Shown in pieces: positions 1,368-22,495 of a DNA stretch of 52,284 bases. Within the stretch, counting starts at the first letter, position 1. The number at the start of each line of letters is the position of its first letter. The stretch lies in NCBI GenBank assembly GCA_938084455.1, contig CALKDX010000036.1:1-52284 (forward strand), written 5' to 3'. Made by a program: the position numbers and the translations under genes. The notes under the pieces were generated by a model. The model was given only the letters and a program-made list of their open reading frames with translations. It ran no database searches and was not told where the DNA came from. This stretch comes from Candidatus Poseidoniaceae archaeon (lineage in GTDB: Archaea; Thermoplasmatota; Poseidoniia; Poseidoniales; Poseidoniaceae).

Positions 1368-1596
1368 GGGCTCACTGAATGGTTGACAGTGCATCCCCTC
1401 AAAGAACCCTTCTCCCTCTCGACGCCACTTCGGGGGGAAATCCTCGAAACTCTTGGGACTCTGGCCGAAAGCGATACCCTCAATAAGGGGTTCGGAATTC
1501 TTGAAAAAACGGCACACTGCAAGGCCACCAACCATCGATGTTGCTGGTAATGTTTAAGGGGCACTTGCGAGTCGGTCGATTCACATGGGTGAGGCT

Positions 1597-2415
1597 ATGC
1601 TACGCGAGTCGATTTCTTCACGGACCGGACTGGTTGCCGGGCTCATCCTTTTGCTGCTTTTGCCCGGGCTTGTCACATCGTACCACACAGGCATTGGTGG
1701 CGAACAAAGCAACGCTGGCGAAACCATTGACGACGTGGCCAAAGAAGGATGTCTGTGCCACAATGGGGACTCCGATAACTCGGTCCAAGTCATCCTTGAC
1801 GATGTCCCATACGGATGGGTTGGTGGCGAAACATACACCATGACCCTCCAACTGATCGGGGGCCCAGCTGCAACTGGAACCTACACAGCAGGGTTTGCTA
1901 TGCGGGTATCCACCGGCGTGCTCGGCGGCGATGAAGTCCAAAATTGGGAAGAAGACCCAACGACACTCACCCACACCGAGGCATCCTCTGTTGGCGAAGA
2001 ACGCCACTGGGTGATCACATGGCAAGCCCCAGCCTCGGGCGAAGGGACCGTCAACTTCTGGATCACCGGTAACTCGGTGAACGGCGACCAACTCCCCGGC
2101 GTGGAAGACAAGTGGAACCAACTCCTATTTGCCCTCCCAGAGGGTGACGACACCACCGATGCGCTCGGCACCCGCACTTTGTTTGCAGGCGACGGAAATG
2201 TCAGCCCTCCAGAACCCGGGCACCACGGAGTCGATTTGCACCACATGGGTGCAAAACTTCGTGCTCACTGGCTTGGATTGCTCGGATTTGGAGCAGTGTT
2301 GGCTGTTATCGCTTTTGCTGGCTTGCTCCTCAGGTACAGCTTCTCCACCTCCTACGTTGGGCGCTCAAACCAGTTGCGTCTCCGTTACAAATTAATGCGA
2401 CGAGGTGACCAGTGA
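1597..2415 (+). CDS. Membrane-anchored Reeler-like (choice-of-anchor V type) protein with CxCH motif
   Basis: First gene of the bc-type operon. From ATG 1597 (ribosome-binding GGTGAG just upstream; a second ATG at 1585 is less well placed) the protein has a hydrophobic signal/anchor (LVAGLILLLLLPGLVTS). It then has a short segment ending in GCLCHNG and a beta-rich domain beginning VQVILDDVP with GGETYTMTLQL. This arrangement is typical of bacterial/archaeal Reeler-like domains that follow a Cys-His motif. One transmembrane helix near the C terminus (LGLLGFGAVLAVIAFAGLLL) leaves a short basic tail inside. The CxCH motif resembles a contracted CxxCH haem-attachment site, so the protein could replace cytochrome c1 in the complex; haem binding is unproven. 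The gene overlaps the next one by one base (TGATG). Confidence 0.7.
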   Translation: MLRESISSRTGLVAGLILLLLLPGLVTSYHTGIGGEQSNAGETIDDVAKEGCLCHNGDSDNSVQVILDDVPYGWVGGETYTMTLQLIGGPAATGTYTAGFAMRVSTGVLGGDEVQNWEEDPTTLTHTEASSVGEERHWVITWQAPASGEGTVNFWITGNSVNGDQLPGVEDKWNQLLFALPEGDDTTDALGTRTLFAGDGNVSPPEPGHHGVDLHHMGAKLRAHWLGLLGFGAVLAVIAFAGLLLRYSFSTSYVGRSNQLRLRYKLMRRGDQ

Positions 2416-2864: not shown

Positions 2865-3710
2865 ATGGCACGTGAATACAACCTCAAACCCGCCATCATT
2901 GATGGTGCTGTTTCAAACGATGCAGAATCGTCGTACATCAACCGACGTCAATTCCTCCGATACGGGTTCAACACCGCAACCGGTGTCCTTGCAGCGTCTC
3001 TGGGCGTTCTCGGGTTCGCCTCCATCCTCCTCCCCCCTGGTGGCTCAAACGCTGGCGACCTTGGTGTCGTCTATTGGGCTAAAGGCCGTGAAGACGAAGC
3101 ATGGTATGGCGCAAAGCACCTGCAATTGATGACAAAGACCGACTTCGTGGAAGAAGCAGCCAAGTCCAACACCGGAACCGCTGGTGCTGCAGGTATTTGG
3201 AACGGCGTTCCTGTCGTGGTCAACTACGTCAACCACTCCGAAAACAAAGACACACCAGAATCCAGCGGATTAGCCCGCTTCCAATTCATGGAAGGCATCG
3301 ATGAAACTGGAAAGACCATTGGCCACTTCGAAGACCTGAGCGACGCAGACCCACGGATTTTCCCTTCCGAAAACCTCGTGATGATCTTTGGACGCTGCAC
3401 ACACTTGTGTTGCATCCCAGGATGGCAATTGGTGTCCAACTCGTTCACTGAAGACTCATGGACGCCCGGTGGCGGTGACGATGGTGGAACCAAGTTGTTC
3501 TGCATTTGCCACTCCTCCCGATTCGACCCGACGGCGCTTGAGATGAACACCAACCGAAACCGCTCAAACGGTGCCACATTCAACTACGCAGGAATCAGAA
3601 AAGCAGGCGGTCCAGCTCCAGTCGGCTTGCCCTTGATTCCAATTCAACTCAACGGTGATGTCATCGAAGGCATCACCGACTACATCGATTGGTACACATA
3701 CTGCGACTGA
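2865..3710 (+). CDS. Rieske [2Fe-2S] protein of a bc-type complex
   Basis: 281 residues. Near residues 27-32 is a twin-arginine motif (NRRQFLR) followed by a single hydrophobic helix (GVLAASLGVLGFASILL), as in Rieske proteins that are exported folded and stay anchored. The cluster-binding boxes are both present: CTHLCC (about residue 182) and CICHSSRFDP (about residue 211). They supply the two Cys and two His ligands plus the disulfide Cys pair. The insert between the boxes is longer than in mitochondrial proteins. In bc1/b6f complexes this subunit takes one electron from quinol at the Qo site and passes it to a c-type haem or copper protein on the outside of the membrane. GGTGA precedes the start, and the cytochrome b gene follows 9 bp later. 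Confidence 0.95.
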   Translation: MAREYNLKPAIIDGAVSNDAESSYINRRQFLRYGFNTATGVLAASLGVLGFASILLPPGGSNAGDLGVVYWAKGREDEAWYGAKHLQLMTKTDFVEEAAKSNTGTAGAAGIWNGVPVVVNYVNHSENKDTPESSGLARFQFMEGIDETGKTIGHFEDLSDADPRIFPSENLVMIFGRCTHLCCIPGWQLVSNSFTEDSWTPGGGDDGGTKLFCICHSSRFDPTALEMNTNRNRSNGATFNYAGIRKAGGPAPVGLPLIPIQLNGDVIEGITDYIDWYTYCD

Positions 3711-3719
3711 GGTGAAACA

Positions 3720-4586
3720 ATGACAACAATGTTCTGGATTCTTTGGTTCTTTATTGCCTTCGTGATCGTTCTCGTGGCGTTGACGCTGCGAAAAGAAAAC
3801 GACGACCTGCCTCGGCGTGAAATCCTCCGTGCCGTCGAGTCAACCGGTAAGATGGGTTTTGCAGAACGGCTGTTCTTGTGGATCTTTTCGTGGCTTGACA
3901 CTCGGTTCAGGCTACAAGACTACTGGAACATGTCCAAAGGTGCGTATTACAACATGCACCGACAAATGCCATTGACGCACGCTGAGAAGTACAAATTGCG
4001 CATCATTTGGTACTGGTACCCACTTTACTGCCTTGGTGGCATCTCTTTCCTTTCATTCATCATCTTGGTGATCACCGGTACCGTGCTCGGAATCTATTAC
4101 GTTCCAGGTGGTGAAGGCGACCCCTCCCCTGCTTACGCAAGCATGCAATTCATCATGACCGAACTGCCGTTTGGTTACATCATCCGGGCGGTCCACCACT
4201 GGGCGACGCACTTCATGGTGGCAAGCGTGTTCTTGCACATGTGTCGCGTGTACTTTACCGGTGCATACCGCAACCCTCGTGAACTCAACTGGCTCATCGG
4301 TGTTGCGCTCATGGCCCTCACCATCGTCTTCGGCTACTCCGGTTACCTTCTGCCGTGGGACTCGCTCGCATACGGTGCAGCAGTGATTGGAATCAACCTC
4401 GCAAATTCCAGCCCATTGGTTGGAAAGTACATCGCAACCCTCTTGTTCAGCGGGTCTGCGCTCACCCCACGAACCGTGACACGAATGTACTTCATCCACG
4501 TGTTTATTCTCCCAGTGATTGTGACCACTTTGATCATCATTCACTTATTCATTGTCTGGGTACAAGGCATTGCGGAGCCACATTGA
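3720..4586 (+). CDS. Cytochrome b N-terminal half (b6-type)
   Basis: 288 residues: one extra N-terminal transmembrane helix (MFWILWFFIAFVIVLVAL), a loop, then the four-helix di-haem domain of cytochrome b. Haem-ligand histidines are visible in helix B (AVHHWATHF ... FLHMCR) and helix D (YFIHVF ... IIIHLF). The helix-D pair has 14 residues between the histidines, as in cytochrome b6, not 13 as in mitochondrial cytochrome b. The Qo-side motif GYSGYLLPWD is present. The frame stops after helix D, so this is the split b6/subunit-IV layout. The second half is encoded immediately downstream, fused to an Fe-S reductase module. Ribosome-binding GAGGTGA lies 4 bp before the ATG. Confidence 0.95.
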   Translation: MTTMFWILWFFIAFVIVLVALTLRKENDDLPRREILRAVESTGKMGFAERLFLWIFSWLDTRFRLQDYWNMSKGAYYNMHRQMPLTHAEKYKLRIIWYWYPLYCLGGISFLSFIILVITGTVLGIYYVPGGEGDPSPAYASMQFIMTELPFGYIIRAVHHWATHFMVASVFLHMCRVYFTGAYRNPRELNWLIGVALMALTIVFGYSGYLLPWDSLAYGAAVIGINLANSSPLVGKYIATLLFSGSALTPRTVTRMYFIHVFILPVIVTTLIIIHLFIVWVQGIAEPH

Positions 4587-4604
4587 TCTTTGGAGGTATG
4601 AATT

Positions 4605-7433
4605 ATGGGACTTATTGAGAATCTCGGCCGTGTTGCCTCTTCCTACATGGAAGAAAAGGAACAACTCCAAACCGCAGGCGAAAAGCGCGTACGCACCAGA
4701 ACCGGTCACGGTTTCTGGCCGCAAGAAGTGCTTCGTGACTCGATCATATTCGCCTTCATGGGTGCAGTCTTGCTGTTTTACGCTTGGTTGATCCCACCGC
4801 CACTGCACGGTGCTGCAGACCCGTACGCTCAAGCAGGATTCGTCTTCCCAGATTGGTACGTGCTGTTCTCCTATGGTTACCTGCGTTGGGGCGAATACCT
4901 ACCGCAATTTACCGTCCCAACAGGTTTCATTGGTGAGATCGTTGGCCAACCTGTGTTCCCTTGGAACGCTGCATGGTGGGGCGCTGCACTCACCGGCATC
5001 CCAGTCAGCATTCTCGCCCTCCCACCGTTCCTCGGTGGACGTGAGAAGCGACCTGTTGAAGATCCATGGTTTGCGACTGCAGGTGCAGTCTACTTAGCTC
5101 ACATTTGGTTCATCTCTGTCTTTTCGATCAACATCTTCCTCGAGTTGTACGGGAAGAACAGATCAGATTATTGTAAATTAGACAGTCATGGTGACCTGTT
5201 GTGTGGAACCCGGGCACCGTGGTTAGCGGATGCGTTCAATTCAATCCCATGGATGATGACTGGAGTGTTGGCTTGGATTTGTATTTACTTCATCGCTCGC
5301 GCCTTGCTGGTCAAGGCATGGGGTGCTGGATTCACACCAGGTCATGCGAAGCAAATCTTGATTGGCTCGCTGTTGATTTCCACCGCAGGAACCGTTGCCA
5401 CATGGGACACCTATGATGATGGATTCTGGGACCAAGGCGGTCTTTTGACCATCAAAGGCCTGACGCATGATCTCTACCCCGAACTCGAAGCGATGAGGGG
5501 TCAACCGACCGATGTTCATGTCCATGACGTCAACGAATTTACCGATGACCGAGGATGGAGCGAGGATGGTATTGTCCCAACCACAGCATGGTTGGACTGG
5601 AGCATCTACCAGCCAGCACGGTACATCATTACCGATTTCACCGACGCCAACGGCCATCAAAACGCTGAGTATGGCATCAACGCTGCTGCAAATTCAACAT
5701 CGTTTAACGGCGGTGCTGGATGGGTCACAGCAGGGACTTTCACCGTCACTGAAGACCTCAGCCACTTCCCCGAAGGCCACCACGAGAGCGTTGAAGCCCT
5801 CACCACAGACCTATCTTGCGAATACCGAGCATCGGAGCGAAAAATCAACGACATCAACACCGTGAGTATGATTTCTTCGACATTGGTCCTCAGCGACAGC
5901 AACGGCAAGACCGTGACAAGTTTCGATGATTGTGCTGGCGCCACGCTCGACCTCTCTGTTGGAGAATACGCATACGAATACACCGTAAGCGTCAGCGGTG
6001 CGTTGGCCTACAACGACAGCATTGTCACTGAAACGTCATTCGCTATTGCAAGCTTCCAACCCCTGCTTGTGTGGAACGAAGATGCACCAGCCGCTCTCGC
6101 TGGACGAACCGTGGACCTCACCAACGACAGCCAGATGGCTCTCGGAGGCACGGCGTTTGCATCGATTGAGAACCCAACTTACCACACCAATCCAAAGGCA
6201 CTTGACGCAAAACTCACCTATGCAATGTTCATTCCTTGTCTGACCTTTGGTGCAGTTGTCTTTGTGCTCCTGCGATCGATGGCTCGTGGCTATGAATTCG
6301 AGATGAACAAGTGCTACGGCTGCGATTTGTGCGACGATGCATGCCCTGTCCGTTTGTTCAACGGTGGTGACAAACTCAACATCATCTACAACTCATGGAA
6401 CAATGAAGACGACGGAGTACCGCTGTATTCGTGTTTGACCTGTACTGCGTGCACCAATGCGTGCCCACAACTCGTGAACTACGACTCCTATGTTGACATC
6501 CGCCGATCGCTCATCGTTGGCGGTCCACAAGCGGAAATCCCTCACACAGTCCTCCAGGCTGTGCTCGCTGCGGAAGCAGAAGAAGCAGCAGACGAGGACT
6601 TCATCGCAACCGAAGACTACCCAATCACCTCAAACATCGGCTACTACCCAGGCTGCGTCGACTACCTCGACCAAGAGATGGTCTTCTCTCACGTCAATGA
6701 AGGCGAGATGAACCTCGGCGATGCAACCACATCGGCGTTCACCTTGTTTGATGACATGAACGTCGACGTCAACTACCTTGGCCGTGACTTCCTCAAGTGC
6801 TGTGGCCACGACCAAAAGTGGCAAGGCCTCGATGAAGTGTTCGAGAAGCTCAAGGCGTACAACCAGAAGAAGATCGAGCAATCAGGTATTGACACGCTCG
6901 TATCTTCATGTGCTGAGTGCTTCCGAACCTTTGCCCGTGATTACGAACTCGAAGGCGTCAAGGTCATGCACACCACCGAATTCTTGGTGGAGAACGGCTT
7001 TGACATGAACCTCAAGGCAGAAGAAGAAACCACGGTCACTTACCACGACCCTTGTCGACTCGGACGCCAAATGGGCGTCTACGAAGAACCTCGTGAACTC
7101 ATTGCTGGAGTCGAAGGTGTTGAAATCGTCGAGATGGAACACAGCGGCGAAGACGCCATGTGCTGTGGTGTATCGAGCATGATGTCATGCAACGAGAACG
7201 CCCGTGCCCTGCGTGTGACCCGCATGGAAGAAATCCGTGCAACCGGTGCTGACACCATGTTGACCTCCTGCCCGAAGTGTGTTTCTCACTTCGAGTGCTT
7301 GAAGTTCGAAGGCGATGAGCGGTACGCAGACATCGAAATCCTCGACGTCGTTTCCTTCCTCGCTCGACAAGTCGAAGCAAAGAAGGCAAAGGCAAGTGCA
7401 GCAGTTCAACCTTCAACTGGTATCGAAGCTTGA
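4605..7433 (+). CDS. Fusion of cytochrome b C-half (subunit IV-like) to an HdrD-like Fe-S reductase
   Basis: One uninterrupted 942-residue frame preceded by GGAGG. Residues 1-260 resemble the C-terminal half of cytochrome b: several transmembrane helices, and the Qo motif PDWY (82-85) in place of PEWY. Residues about 265-535 form a large domain, predicted outside, with no recognised family. A transmembrane helix at about 538-557 brings the chain back inside. Two ferredoxin-type sites follow: C570xxC573xxC576xxxC580P and C610xxC613xxC616xxxC620P. Two complete CCG domains end the protein: C684, C732C733G, C769xxC772, and C817, C853C854G, C889xxC892. That order matches HdrD/GlpC-type subunits, whose CCG cysteines bind non-cubane [4Fe-4S] clusters in heterodisulfide reductase. 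The fusion implies direct electron flow between a cytosolic Fe-S/CCG oxidoreductase and the quinone-linked b haems. Substrate is unknown. Confidence 0.9.
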   Translation: MGLIENLGRVASSYMEEKEQLQTAGEKRVRTRTGHGFWPQEVLRDSIIFAFMGAVLLFYAWLIPPPLHGAADPYAQAGFVFPDWYVLFSYGYLRWGEYLPQFTVPTGFIGEIVGQPVFPWNAAWWGAALTGIPVSILALPPFLGGREKRPVEDPWFATAGAVYLAHIWFISVFSINIFLELYGKNRSDYCKLDSHGDLLCGTRAPWLADAFNSIPWMMTGVLAWICIYFIARALLVKAWGAGFTPGHAKQILIGSLLISTAGTVATWDTYDDGFWDQGGLLTIKGLTHDLYPELEAMRGQPTDVHVHDVNEFTDDRGWSEDGIVPTTAWLDWSIYQPARYIITDFTDANGHQNAEYGINAAANSTSFNGGAGWVTAGTFTVTEDLSHFPEGHHESVEALTTDLSCEYRASERKINDINTVSMISSTLVLSDSNGKTVTSFDDCAGATLDLSVGEYAYEYTVSVSGALAYNDSIVTETSFAIASFQPLLVWNEDAPAALAGRTVDLTNDSQMALGGTAFASIENPTYHTNPKALDAKLTYAMFIPCLTFGAVVFVLLRSMARGYEFEMNKCYGCDLCDDACPVRLFNGGDKLNIIYNSWNNEDDGVPLYSCLTCTACTNACPQLVNYDSYVDIRRSLIVGGPQAEIPHTVLQAVLAAEAEEAADEDFIATEDYPITSNIGYYPGCVDYLDQEMVFSHVNEGEMNLGDATTSAFTLFDDMNVDVNYLGRDFLKCCGHDQKWQGLDEVFEKLKAYNQKKIEQSGIDTLVSSCAECFRTFARDYELEGVKVMHTTEFLVENGFDMNLKAEEETTVTYHDPCRLGRQMGVYEEPRELIAGVEGVEIVEMEHSGEDAMCCGVSSMMSCNENARALRVTRMEEIRATGADTMLTSCPKCVSHFECLKFEGDERYADIEILDVVSFLARQVEAKKAKASAAVQPSTGIEA

Positions 7434-21172: not shown

Positions 21173-21865
21173 ATGCCCCCTCGGCCAACCATGCACAGGG
21201 CATGGGTGTACGTACTCACCATCGCCATAGGGCTCTGGGTGTCAGCAACCGGTGCCAATGGCTTGCTCTCTGATGAGTTTGCAGAATGGCCAGTGAACAT
21301 TTGGTGCTGGGGTCTGTTTGCTTATTTTTACCTCAATGCTTCTCGCAAAGTCCGCATTGAAATGATCACTGTTGTGGCTATTGCAACGCCTATGGAATTG
21401 TACTTCAGCGAGGTATGGAAAATCTACGAATATCAGCGTGATTTCATGCCGCTGTTCGTCCCTGCAGGTCATTATTTCCTGTTTGACTTAGGTCGCATAA
21501 TCGCTGAGAAAATGAAAGAATCGTGGTCGATGCCAGCGCTCATGCCCTTTGTCCCCCTTGTGGCTTATGGGGCCATCACTGGCGGCGATACTTCAGCCGT
21601 GTTCCTGCTGGTGCTCGTCCTTGGATTCACCAAGTATGGACCACAACCCCGGCTCTATGCCGCAATGGCTTGGGCCGCCCTTGGCATGGAAATCTTAGGC
21701 ACACAACTGCAAAATTGGACATGGGCAAATGAAGTGCCTTGGACCGGCCTCACAGCATGGAATCCTCCACTTTTGGTTGGAGCATTCTACTGCTTTGGTG
21801 ATCTTTTGGTCAACATGGCGGTCGTCAAGTTTGAAGGGAAGGAGCATGTGGAGGTTTCCGTATGA
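21173..21865 (+). CDS. Polytopic membrane protein of unknown function
   Basis: About 230 residues and six to seven hydrophobic helices. The start is ATG 21173 with AAGTGA 2 bp before it; GTG 21167 is an alternative. Polar residues lie inside or next to helices: PMELYFSEVWKIYEYQ, FVPAGHYFLFDLGR, and near the end LGMEILGTQLQNWTWAN and AWNPPLLVGAFYCFGDLLVN. Paired Glu, His, Asp and Trp residues within the membrane suggest a catalytic or metal/cofactor site, not a simple transporter. No family is recognised. It overlaps the ferredoxin gene by 4 bp, so an electron-consuming membrane reaction is a reasonable guess. Confidence 0.7.
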   Translation: MPPRPTMHRAWVYVLTIAIGLWVSATGANGLLSDEFAEWPVNIWCWGLFAYFYLNASRKVRIEMITVVAIATPMELYFSEVWKIYEYQRDFMPLFVPAGHYFLFDLGRIIAEKMKESWSMPALMPFVPLVAYGAITGGDTSAVFLLVLVLGFTKYGPQPRLYAAMAWAALGMEILGTQLQNWTWANEVPWTGLTAWNPPLLVGAFYCFGDLLVNMAVVKFEGKEHVEVSV

Positions 21866-22194
21866 CCTCCTCCGAGGACCTGAGAAAGCGCAGAGAGGCA
21901 GAGGCCTTGCGCATTCGAAGTTCGCTGAATCGGTTGCGTACAGAACAGCACGCCGCTGCAAAAGGAGGGGAAACCGCTGTCGCATTTGTCGAAGAGCGCT
22001 TGTGCATTGGTTGTGACCAGTGCACGATTGTATGCGACGATGATGCCATTGACCTGTACAAGGTAGCGATGGCAAGTCCACTGATCAAGGTCGAATCAAA
22101 TCGGAAAGCACGAATCATCCGTGATGCGTGCACTGGGTGCCGTTTGTGTGTGCTAGCATGCCCAACCGACGCCATAACCATGATTGATCGCTGA
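21862..22194 (+). CDS. 2[4Fe-4S] ferredoxin-like protein
   Basis: 110 residues. After a charged helical N terminus (EDLRKRREAEALRIRSSLNRL) there are two complete cluster motifs: CIGCDQCTIVC (about residues 48-58) and CTGCRLCVLACP (about residues 91-102). They are separated by a longer spacer than in clostridial ferredoxins. It would carry low-potential electrons in the cytoplasm. GGAGG lies upstream and the start overlaps the membrane-protein stop (ATGA), so the two should be made together. The first motif lacks the usual Pro after its fourth Cys. Confidence 0.88.
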   Translation: MTSSEDLRKRREAEALRIRSSLNRLRTEQHAAAKGGETAVAFVEERLCIGCDQCTIVCDDDAIDLYKVAMASPLIKVESNRKARIIRDACTGCRLCVLACPTDAITMIDR

Positions 22195-22204
22195 GGGAAA
22201 GACG

Positions 22205-22495
22205 ATGTCAAAGAAAGGAAAGGAAGACACTGCCCAACGGTTTGGTGGTGAATTTGGACCATATCGAAAGCCAGGAACGCCTGGGGTAACCCTTTCGACG
22301 TTCAAATCATTGGTTTGGATTTCAAACATCGGCGGTCTGCTGCTGGTGGTCATCGCTCTAGAGATGCTGTTCGTTCGCCAGATGTTTGGATGGGGTCTGT
22401 TCTGCCTCATGCTTGGTGTTGGTGTGGCCTTGTTTCCTTCGAATTACGAAATCGTCGGTATGGATGAGAAAGCAGAAGCCCCTGCAACCGAGTAA
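22205..22495 (+). CDS. Small two-helix membrane protein
   Basis: 96 residues from ATG 22205 with GAGG 9 bp upstream. A hydrophilic N terminus (SKKGKEDTAQRFGGEFGPY) is followed by two hydrophobic helices (LVWISNIGGLLLVVIALEMLFV and GWGLFCLMLGVGVALF) and an acidic tail. No family is recognised. It is the last gene of the cluster that starts with the microprotein and asnB, 10 bp after the ferredoxin gene. It could anchor the ferredoxin or assist the membrane protein upstream, which is inference from order only. Confidence 0.65.
   Translation: MSKKGKEDTAQRFGGEFGPYRKPGTPGVTLSTFKSLVWISNIGGLLLVVIALEMLFVRQMFGWGLFCLMLGVGVALFPSNYEIVGMDEKAEAPATE

Follow-up and report, generated by a model that had tools for sequence, protein, structure and literature searches.

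Organization of the Rieske/cytochrome b locus

The window, i.e. the whole stretch of 52,284 nucleotides analysed here (contig CALKDX010000036.1 of a Candidatus Poseidoniaceae archaeon), encodes a Rieske/cytochrome b complex in which the C-terminal half of cytochrome b (PetD) is continued, within one 942-residue chain, by a domain placed outside the membrane and by an arm of iron-sulfur (Fe-S) domains resembling those of heterodisulfide reductase (Hdr). The arm probably passes electrons between the ferredoxin of the cell and the quinone pool. Positions follow the numbering of the window, and residue numbers refer to the 942-residue fusion unless PetB or Rieske is named. The genes of the complex and the parts of the fusion are:

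2865..3710, + strand: Rieske [2Fe-2S] protein, 281 residues, with CTHLCC at 178 and CICHSS at 213 (NCBIfam Rieske_proteo, E 2.6e-9, below cut-off)
3720..4586, + strand: cytochrome b6 (PetB), Pfam Cytochrome_B E 1.3e-41, four heme-b histidines, Cys104 encoded by bases 4029-4031
4605..7433, + strand: PetD-outside domain-Fer4-CCG-CCG fusion, 942 residues, a single stop-free open reading frame (ORF)
4605..5159, + strand: PetD (subunit IV) half of the fusion, residues 1-185, with PDWY at 82-85 (profile match to 2e74_B, E 2.2e-5)
5460..6197, + strand: outside (p-side) beta domain, residues 286-531, model pLDDT 87.3; Cys405 and Cys443 invariant in 44/44 MGII (Marine Group II) rows
6210..6272, + strand: last membrane helix, residues 536-556, from hydropathy (helix 532-560 in the model)
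6300..6470, + strand: two [4Fe-4S] motifs, residues 566-622, Pfam Fer4_8/Fer4_9; eight cysteines invariant in 46/46
6654..6920, + strand: ligand region of CCG domain 1, residues 684-772, with C684, C732, C733, C769, C772 and Glu771
7035..7298, + strand: CCG domain 2, residues 811-898 (Pfam CCG 811-896), with C817, C853, C854, C889, C892 and the further invariant C862 and C898

The Rieske gene gives no Pfam match at E<=0.1; both cluster motifs (C-T-H-x-x-C and C-x-C-H-x-S) are present in it. PetB matches cytochrome b6 (1vf5_A) by profile with E 1.4e-43, and its heme-b positions, H159/H173 and H260/H275, have the b6 spacing. The PetD half (first 185 residues) shows no Pfam match at E<=0.1 and is recognised by profile alone, when a profile of eight fusions is compared with subunit IV of cytochrome b6f. 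In the remainder of the chain, two CCG domains (E 3.5e-23) and a ferredoxin dicluster pass the Pfam cut-offs. The composition of the chain and its neighbourhood with a Rieske gene and a b6-type N-terminal half, as described in an earlier note on this DNA, are thereby confirmed.

Conservation and variants of the fused chain

In the order sample (145 genomes, 75-97% complete, with some matches being pieces at contig ends) every genome gives a fusion match at E<=1e-5, and 141 of the 145 reach 1.1e-131 or better; weak matches only (2.1e-28 to 1.3e-47) are found in G015, G039, G054 and G100. The scan of named genomes is represented by the best 80 of 493 confirmed loci, all of them of the Poseidoniales type or from CSMAG/nzgw66 bins, and, judged by these loci, the relatives belong to Candidatus Poseidoniales and Thalassarchaeaceae, i.e. 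MGII. Among these best 80, the motifs PDWY and CCG[VI][SA][SA]MM lie inside one ORF in 72. All 20 cysteines beyond residue 556 are invariant in the 46 aligned fusions. An assembly join or a frameshift, named in the earlier note as what could undo the finding, is ruled out by the strong matches across the order together with the single-ORF loci. The chain is not joined everywhere, because in all seven genomes of the MGIII-like family PetD-Fer4 and CCG are neighbouring separate genes (in G273 the CCG gene extends beyond the end of the locus), which points to fission or fusion and not to an error.

In the phylum scan (389 genomes, 19 of them then inspected more closely) the same domain order was found, as the earlier note had suggested looking for, in two further families, in both without the outside domain. 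The fusion has 789 residues in the Thermoplasmata isolate nzgw66 (G168) and 606 residues in G176, and is found in pieces in G181 (bins CSMAG_327, CSMAG_707). The remaining genomes of the 19-genome set contain free-standing HdrD-like matches only. Eight further lineages (the fragment G183 left out) have a plain PetD with no arm in an operon of the same kind. The plain tails (6 tails) end in '..LN.xYYKVR', at the point where the fused ones start the first [4Fe-4S] motif, and since they stop there, a loss from a fused ancestor is hinted. In the PetB tree (PetB was searched in 105 genomes outside the order) the G176/G181 branch is the deepest; the node supports around it are 83/78, so that the nodes bearing on the polarity of gain and loss are weakly resolved.

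Some of these relatives show additional domains. In G176 (L063:986-3610) PetB is fused behind four Big_5 immunoglobulin-like domains (E 1.3e-61) and an N-terminal segment in which a CHG motif occurs, and an immunoglobulin-like N-terminal region is seen by eye in PetB of G168. The plain PetD of G145 is succeeded by a membrane protein (L188:9338-9856) that contains a glutaredoxin-like domain (PF05768, E 8e-13). In a cold-seep bin, an HdrA-like protein with a FlpD C-terminus lies right after the fusion (L064:757-2289).

Membrane part, heme c(n) site and outside domain

The hydropathy profile of the fusion indicates six helices, of which five are clear and the fifth (248-266) is under the threshold; the helices appear also in the structural model. 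If the N-terminus lies inside the cell, the predicted topology places the Fe-S arm there too, and the PDWY loop together with the outside domain on the p side. The model of the whole chain is poor (mean pLDDT 66.8, pTM 0.41, with Fer4 and most of the N-terminal part of PetD below 50); the outside domain is modeled as a confident beta sandwich. No Pfam match was found for this domain, and Foldseek returned weak GOLD/jelly-roll-like matches only (TM by target ~0.6 at best, 9-10% identity). A redox domain of the cupredoxin or cytochrome kind was considered for it and rejected on these grounds and on the absence of CxxCH. In one lineage with plain PetD, the corresponding outside loop of a 579-residue ORF (L186:5997-7733) also contains a long insertion, which by eye does not resemble the MGII domain.

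PetB Cys104 aligns with Cys35 of cytochrome b6, to which heme c(n) is covalently bound. All 70 pattern-matched PetB proteins from the named loci (among the best 80 of 493) have a cysteine at this site. By operon type, the cysteine is present in 11/11 fused, 3/7 split and 1/8 plain operons, an association with the arm that is suggestive only, since the rows are related.

The Fe-S arm and its cluster ligands

In Foldseek the arm is best matched by EtfD (E 3.9e-11), and HdrB is the next in kind (5odc_B, E 1.4e-6). EtfD is also the nearest match in sequence, and LdhH, GlpC, GlcF, TmcB and DsrK are further CCG subunits which score. The papers given by PMC number are cited for the parts consulted; in that of PMC13083937, EtfD is an electron wire to quinone. 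These matches would suit an EtfD-like arm, supplied with electrons by a flavoprotein dehydrogenase (ETF, lactate- or glycolate-type) and delivering them to the quinone pool. An acceptor for ETF was the first choice and was demoted because the same genome separately encodes a CCG protein of EtfD/FadF type, 678 residues long and with its N-terminal part in the membrane. Moreover, no flavoprotein gene is seen in the MGII operon and two ligand positions differ, and we regard a flavoprotein donor as decidedly unlikely.

In respect to these ligands, cluster D1 of EtfD is a linear [3Fe-4S] cluster since Thr539 stands where a cysteine would be, and His583 caps D2 (PMC13083937, in the part consulted). 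The MGII fusions have Cys733 and Glu771 at the places of Thr539 and His583, and therefore ten cluster cysteines, as in HdrB. In Hdr the bridging cysteines serve disulfide chemistry (same part of PMC13083937). Two CCG domains with five cluster cysteines each, the pattern of heterodisulfide reductase, are found in 46/46 fusions and are incomplete in 7/7 MGIII-like genomes: in g22 (3 genomes) the motif reads CAEG and Cys772 is lost, while in g23 (4 genomes) it reads CSG and Cys733 is lost, which equals the D1 ligand pattern of EtfD. The coupled loss in g23, with Ser both at PetB 104 and at CCG 733, concerns a single lineage and proves little. Cys862 and Cys898 of CCG domain 2 are invariant in 46/46 and have no counterpart in the EtfD and HdrB alignments.

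The earlier note had proposed that the CCG clusters of this complex reduce or oxidise a cytosolic disulfide or thiol. What stands of this is the covalent join of an HdrD-like module to a b6-type complex, its predicted cytosolic side, and CCG cysteines that are kept in all 46 fusions; in the MGIII-like family the conservation breaks, with one domain-1 cysteine missing in each of the seven relatives. In MGII, the five cysteines per CCG domain, like HdrB and unlike EtfD, and the extra invariant Cys862 and Cys898 would suit such chemistry. On the other side, a function that outlasts both cysteine losses in the MGIII-like family would hardly be two-cluster disulfide chemistry, the nearest structure is the wire EtfD, and the syntenic partner is a ferredoxin (see below). 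The hosts are also aerobic, and sensitivity to oxygen is expected of noncubane clusters that are open to solvent (PMC13083937, part consulted). We consider a disulfide or thiol substrate highly unlikely. The cysteine patterns speak for an arm acting as an electron wire.

The ferredoxin partner

Two further genes of the window belong to this part of the description:

21862..22194, + strand: partner 2x[4Fe-4S] ferredoxin, 110 residues, ~14 kb from the fusion here and adjoining the fusion in most MGII
22184..22495, + strand: one-helix membrane protein, 103 residues, coming after the ferredoxin and similar to the last membrane protein of the MGIII-like operon (E 2e-6)

In Thalassarchaeaceae the fusion is followed by the 110-residue ferredoxin and then by the one-helix protein. 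In 62 of the 70 named MGII fusion loci the ferredoxin gene follows the fusion on its strand, at most 1 kb downstream; in five of the other eight it is elsewhere nearby (two upstream, two convergent, one at 7.6 kb), and three loci end too soon. A homologue is present in 59/60 genomes of the order. The MGIII-like family has a longer, related ferredoxin after CCG in all five loci with room for it; in L067 its N-terminal half is zinc-ferredoxin-like (ZFX_Thplmales, E 1.3e-16, below cut-off), and the operon of that locus closes with the counterpart of the one-helix protein listed above. In G168 a polyferredoxin comes immediately after the fusion. No ferredoxin gene was found in the seven plain-PetD operons with enough flank, the eighth (L202) having too little.

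The best NCBIfam match of the partner ferredoxin is rnfB (49.5 bits, cut-off 68.7). The orphan 'RnfB' reported for MGII, where RnfACDEG is absent according to the consulted part of PMC6336850, is for this reason very probably the same protein, as judged from the match.

Reduced ferredoxin has a ready source, as POR_N (2-oxoacid:ferredoxin oxidoreductase) is present in 30/30 MGII genomes, and zinc ferredoxins accept electrons from this enzyme (PMC2946596, part consulted). The NuoF family PF01512, the NADH subunit of complex I, is found in 6/60 genomes of the order (1/26 among the most complete; 9/14 in the control rings), whereas a NuoD-type subunit is found in 29/30 MGII genomes; therefore ferredoxin is favoured as the candidate respiratory donor in MGII. 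The scarcity of NuoF disagrees with the 'canonical NADH dehydrogenases' with which MGII is credited in the consulted part of PMC6336850.

Proposed route and direction of electrons

Taken together, we give about an even chance to a b6f-type complex with an integrated ferredoxin:quinone wire. In such a wire, the 2-oxoacid:ferredoxin oxidoreductases would reduce ferredoxin and pass electrons to the operon ferredoxin (21862-22194), which would dock on the HdrD-like arm. Within the arm, the CCG and [4Fe-4S] clusters would carry the electrons as far as heme c(n)/b(n), the heme group of the n side, and quinone would be reduced at the n-side site. At PDWY, on the p side, the quinol would be oxidised again; one of its electrons would reach a copper protein and oxidase by way of Rieske, and the other would be recycled. 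The fusion, its predicted topology, the conserved ligands, the ferredoxin partner and the heme-c(n) cysteine are what is observed; from these we infer the cluster types, the route, its direction and the carriers. The potentials are -280 mV for cluster I of zinc ferredoxin (PMC2946596) and -70 mV for menaquinone (PMC12954380; both in the parts consulted), and because the step from ferredoxin to menaquinone is downhill, electron input through ferredoxin is the simpler reading.

Several points weigh against the ferredoxin:quinone wire. In the species of the window the ferredoxin gene is 14 kb from the fusion, and in G176/G181 HdrA-FlpD takes the place of the ferredoxin. Synteny with a ferredoxin is an association and carries no information on direction. 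The MGIII-like family has Ser at the heme-c(n) site in 4/7 genomes with the arm kept, and one plain lineage has the cysteine and no arm. In respect to energetics, menaquinone is assumed as the MGII quinone in the downhill argument, and passing electrons from ferredoxin straight to quinone wastes energy that complex I could conserve.

The same wiring could be run outward. Quinol would then be bifurcated on the p side, the Rieske branch (O2) would pay, and the b hemes and the arm would reduce ferredoxin, by analogy with the NAD(P)H proposal for the anammox complexes, which have an n-side Fe-S arm beside heme c(n) and are argued to run outward by bifurcation (PMC12954380, part consulted). A high-potential branch is available (copper proteins in 27/30 genomes; an oxidase reported by Tully 2019, PMC6336850, part consulted), and a ferredoxin partner suits either direction. 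Reduced ferredoxin is already supplied, with POR_N in every one of the 30 genomes, which speaks against the need for such a route. Moreover, electrons that move from b(p) over b(n) onto a carrier of low potential have to work against the membrane potential. We regard the outward direction as unlikely.

A third kind of wiring is suggested by G176/G181, in which the gene next after the fusion codes for an HdrA-like protein that ends in FlpD (HdrA2 E 1.9e-37, FlpD E 1.4e-17) and which form the deepest branch of the PetB tree. The arm could accordingly be the HdrBC part of an HdrABC-like machine for flavin bifurcation, with quinone as the high-potential acceptor instead of the heterodisulfide. The position of that branch is weakly supported (83/78), and FlpD was found in 0/60 MGII genomes (2/14 in the control rings), HdrA without FlpD not having been searched in MGII. 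This is the least probable of the explanations considered here.

The operon offers a concrete candidate that can be put to the test, in archaea that are among the most abundant in the sea, and it could help explain how ferredoxin is re-oxidised in aerobic archaea. Wiring on the n side would here occur naturally in a complex of the b6f type, with bearing on ferredoxin input in cyclic electron flow and on the anammox complexes. The bolder statement, that a quinone-bifurcating Rieske/b complex pushes electrons to ferredoxin through the Hdr arm using its O2-linked branch, or else that this is the respiratory ferredoxin oxidase of aerobic archaea, we hold to be unlikely. If true in either direction, n-side heme c(n) would be a hard-wired port and not a free quinone site, providing low-potential electrons for aerobic archaea or representing a long-missing ferredoxin oxidase.

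Comparison with known complexes

With cytochrome b6f the complex shares the split cytochrome b, the four heme-b histidines at b6 spacing, the cysteine at the place of b6 Cys35 and the subunit-IV half. It differs by PDWY in place of PEWY and by a PetD bearing an outside domain and an Hdr-like arm. The cytochrome f signature CxxCH is also absent from the seven window proteins checked, the rest of the genome not having been searched. As in EtfD/FadF, a membrane cytochrome is covalently joined with two [4Fe-4S] clusters and two CCG domains; in EtfD, however, the membrane domain consists of five helices with a single b heme (PMC13083937, part consulted) and the D1/D2 ligands are those described above, whereas here the membrane part is a PetD half with PetB and Rieske as partners.

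HdrDE, HdrBC, QmoC and DsrMK resemble the arm in having five cysteines per CCG domain and a dicluster ferredoxin domain, HdrB and HdrC having been matched in our searches. Their difference is in the membrane part, which here is PetD and not of the HdrE/NarI type, and no methanogenic cofactors are implied.

The anammox Rieske/b complexes (Kuste4569-4574 and Kustd1480-1485) combine a b6-like split cytochrome b with an Fe-S arm that lies in the cytoplasm close to heme c(n). Their arm is an NAD(P) reductase made of separate subunits, in contrast to the fused, HdrD-like arm with a ferredoxin partner described here (PMC12954380, part consulted). Among the annotated genes of the present operon there is no NAD(P)/FAD reductase for the n side.

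The 'cytochrome b + Rieske, MGII-specific complex III' of Tully 2019 very likely consists of the same genes; the consulted part of that paper (PMC6336850) mentions neither a fusion nor an Hdr-like module and does not connect complex III with 'RnfB'. The orphan 'RnfB' and the 'MGII-specific complex III', both loose ends in the physiology of MGII, would be brought together by the operon. No description of the fusion was found in the open-access literature, most subscription papers being outside the search, and neither Rieske nor cytochrome b is mentioned in the main text of a survey devoted to fusions in archaea (PMC11237513). The statement of the earlier note that no described complex has this covalent arrangement holds within the literature searched, with related ideas in EtfD (PMC13083937) and the anammox complexes (PMC12954380), both in the parts consulted.

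Other genes near the complex

Directly upstream of the Rieske gene are two further genes of the operon:

1585..2415, + strand: choice-of-anchor V protein, 276 residues (NCBIfam choice_anch_V, E 2.1e-23), with a GCLCH motif and, by eye, a C-terminal membrane helix
2412..2858, + strand: DUF7318-like small membrane protein, 148 residues (Pfam DUF7318, E 2.5e-4, below cut-off), syntenic in relatives

The choice-of-anchor V gene is present in plain, split and fused operons alike. Its GC-x-CH motif is kept, with CxCH in 79/81 homologues, CxxCH in one and neither in one. It is possible that CxCH provides a heme-like site and that the protein could substitute for cytochrome f/c1.

Further upstream a divergent gene for a Tubulin/FtsZ-family protein (100-1116, - strand; PF12327, E 1.6e-16) is located, which is seen by eye near the operon in related loci. 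On the other side of the fusion, genes recognised by eye between 13605 and 17310 as biotin-carrier, carboxyltransferase, B12-binding and MeaB-like genes correspond to the propionyl/methylmalonyl-CoA route; by eye, genes of this route are found near the fusion in other MGII loci too.

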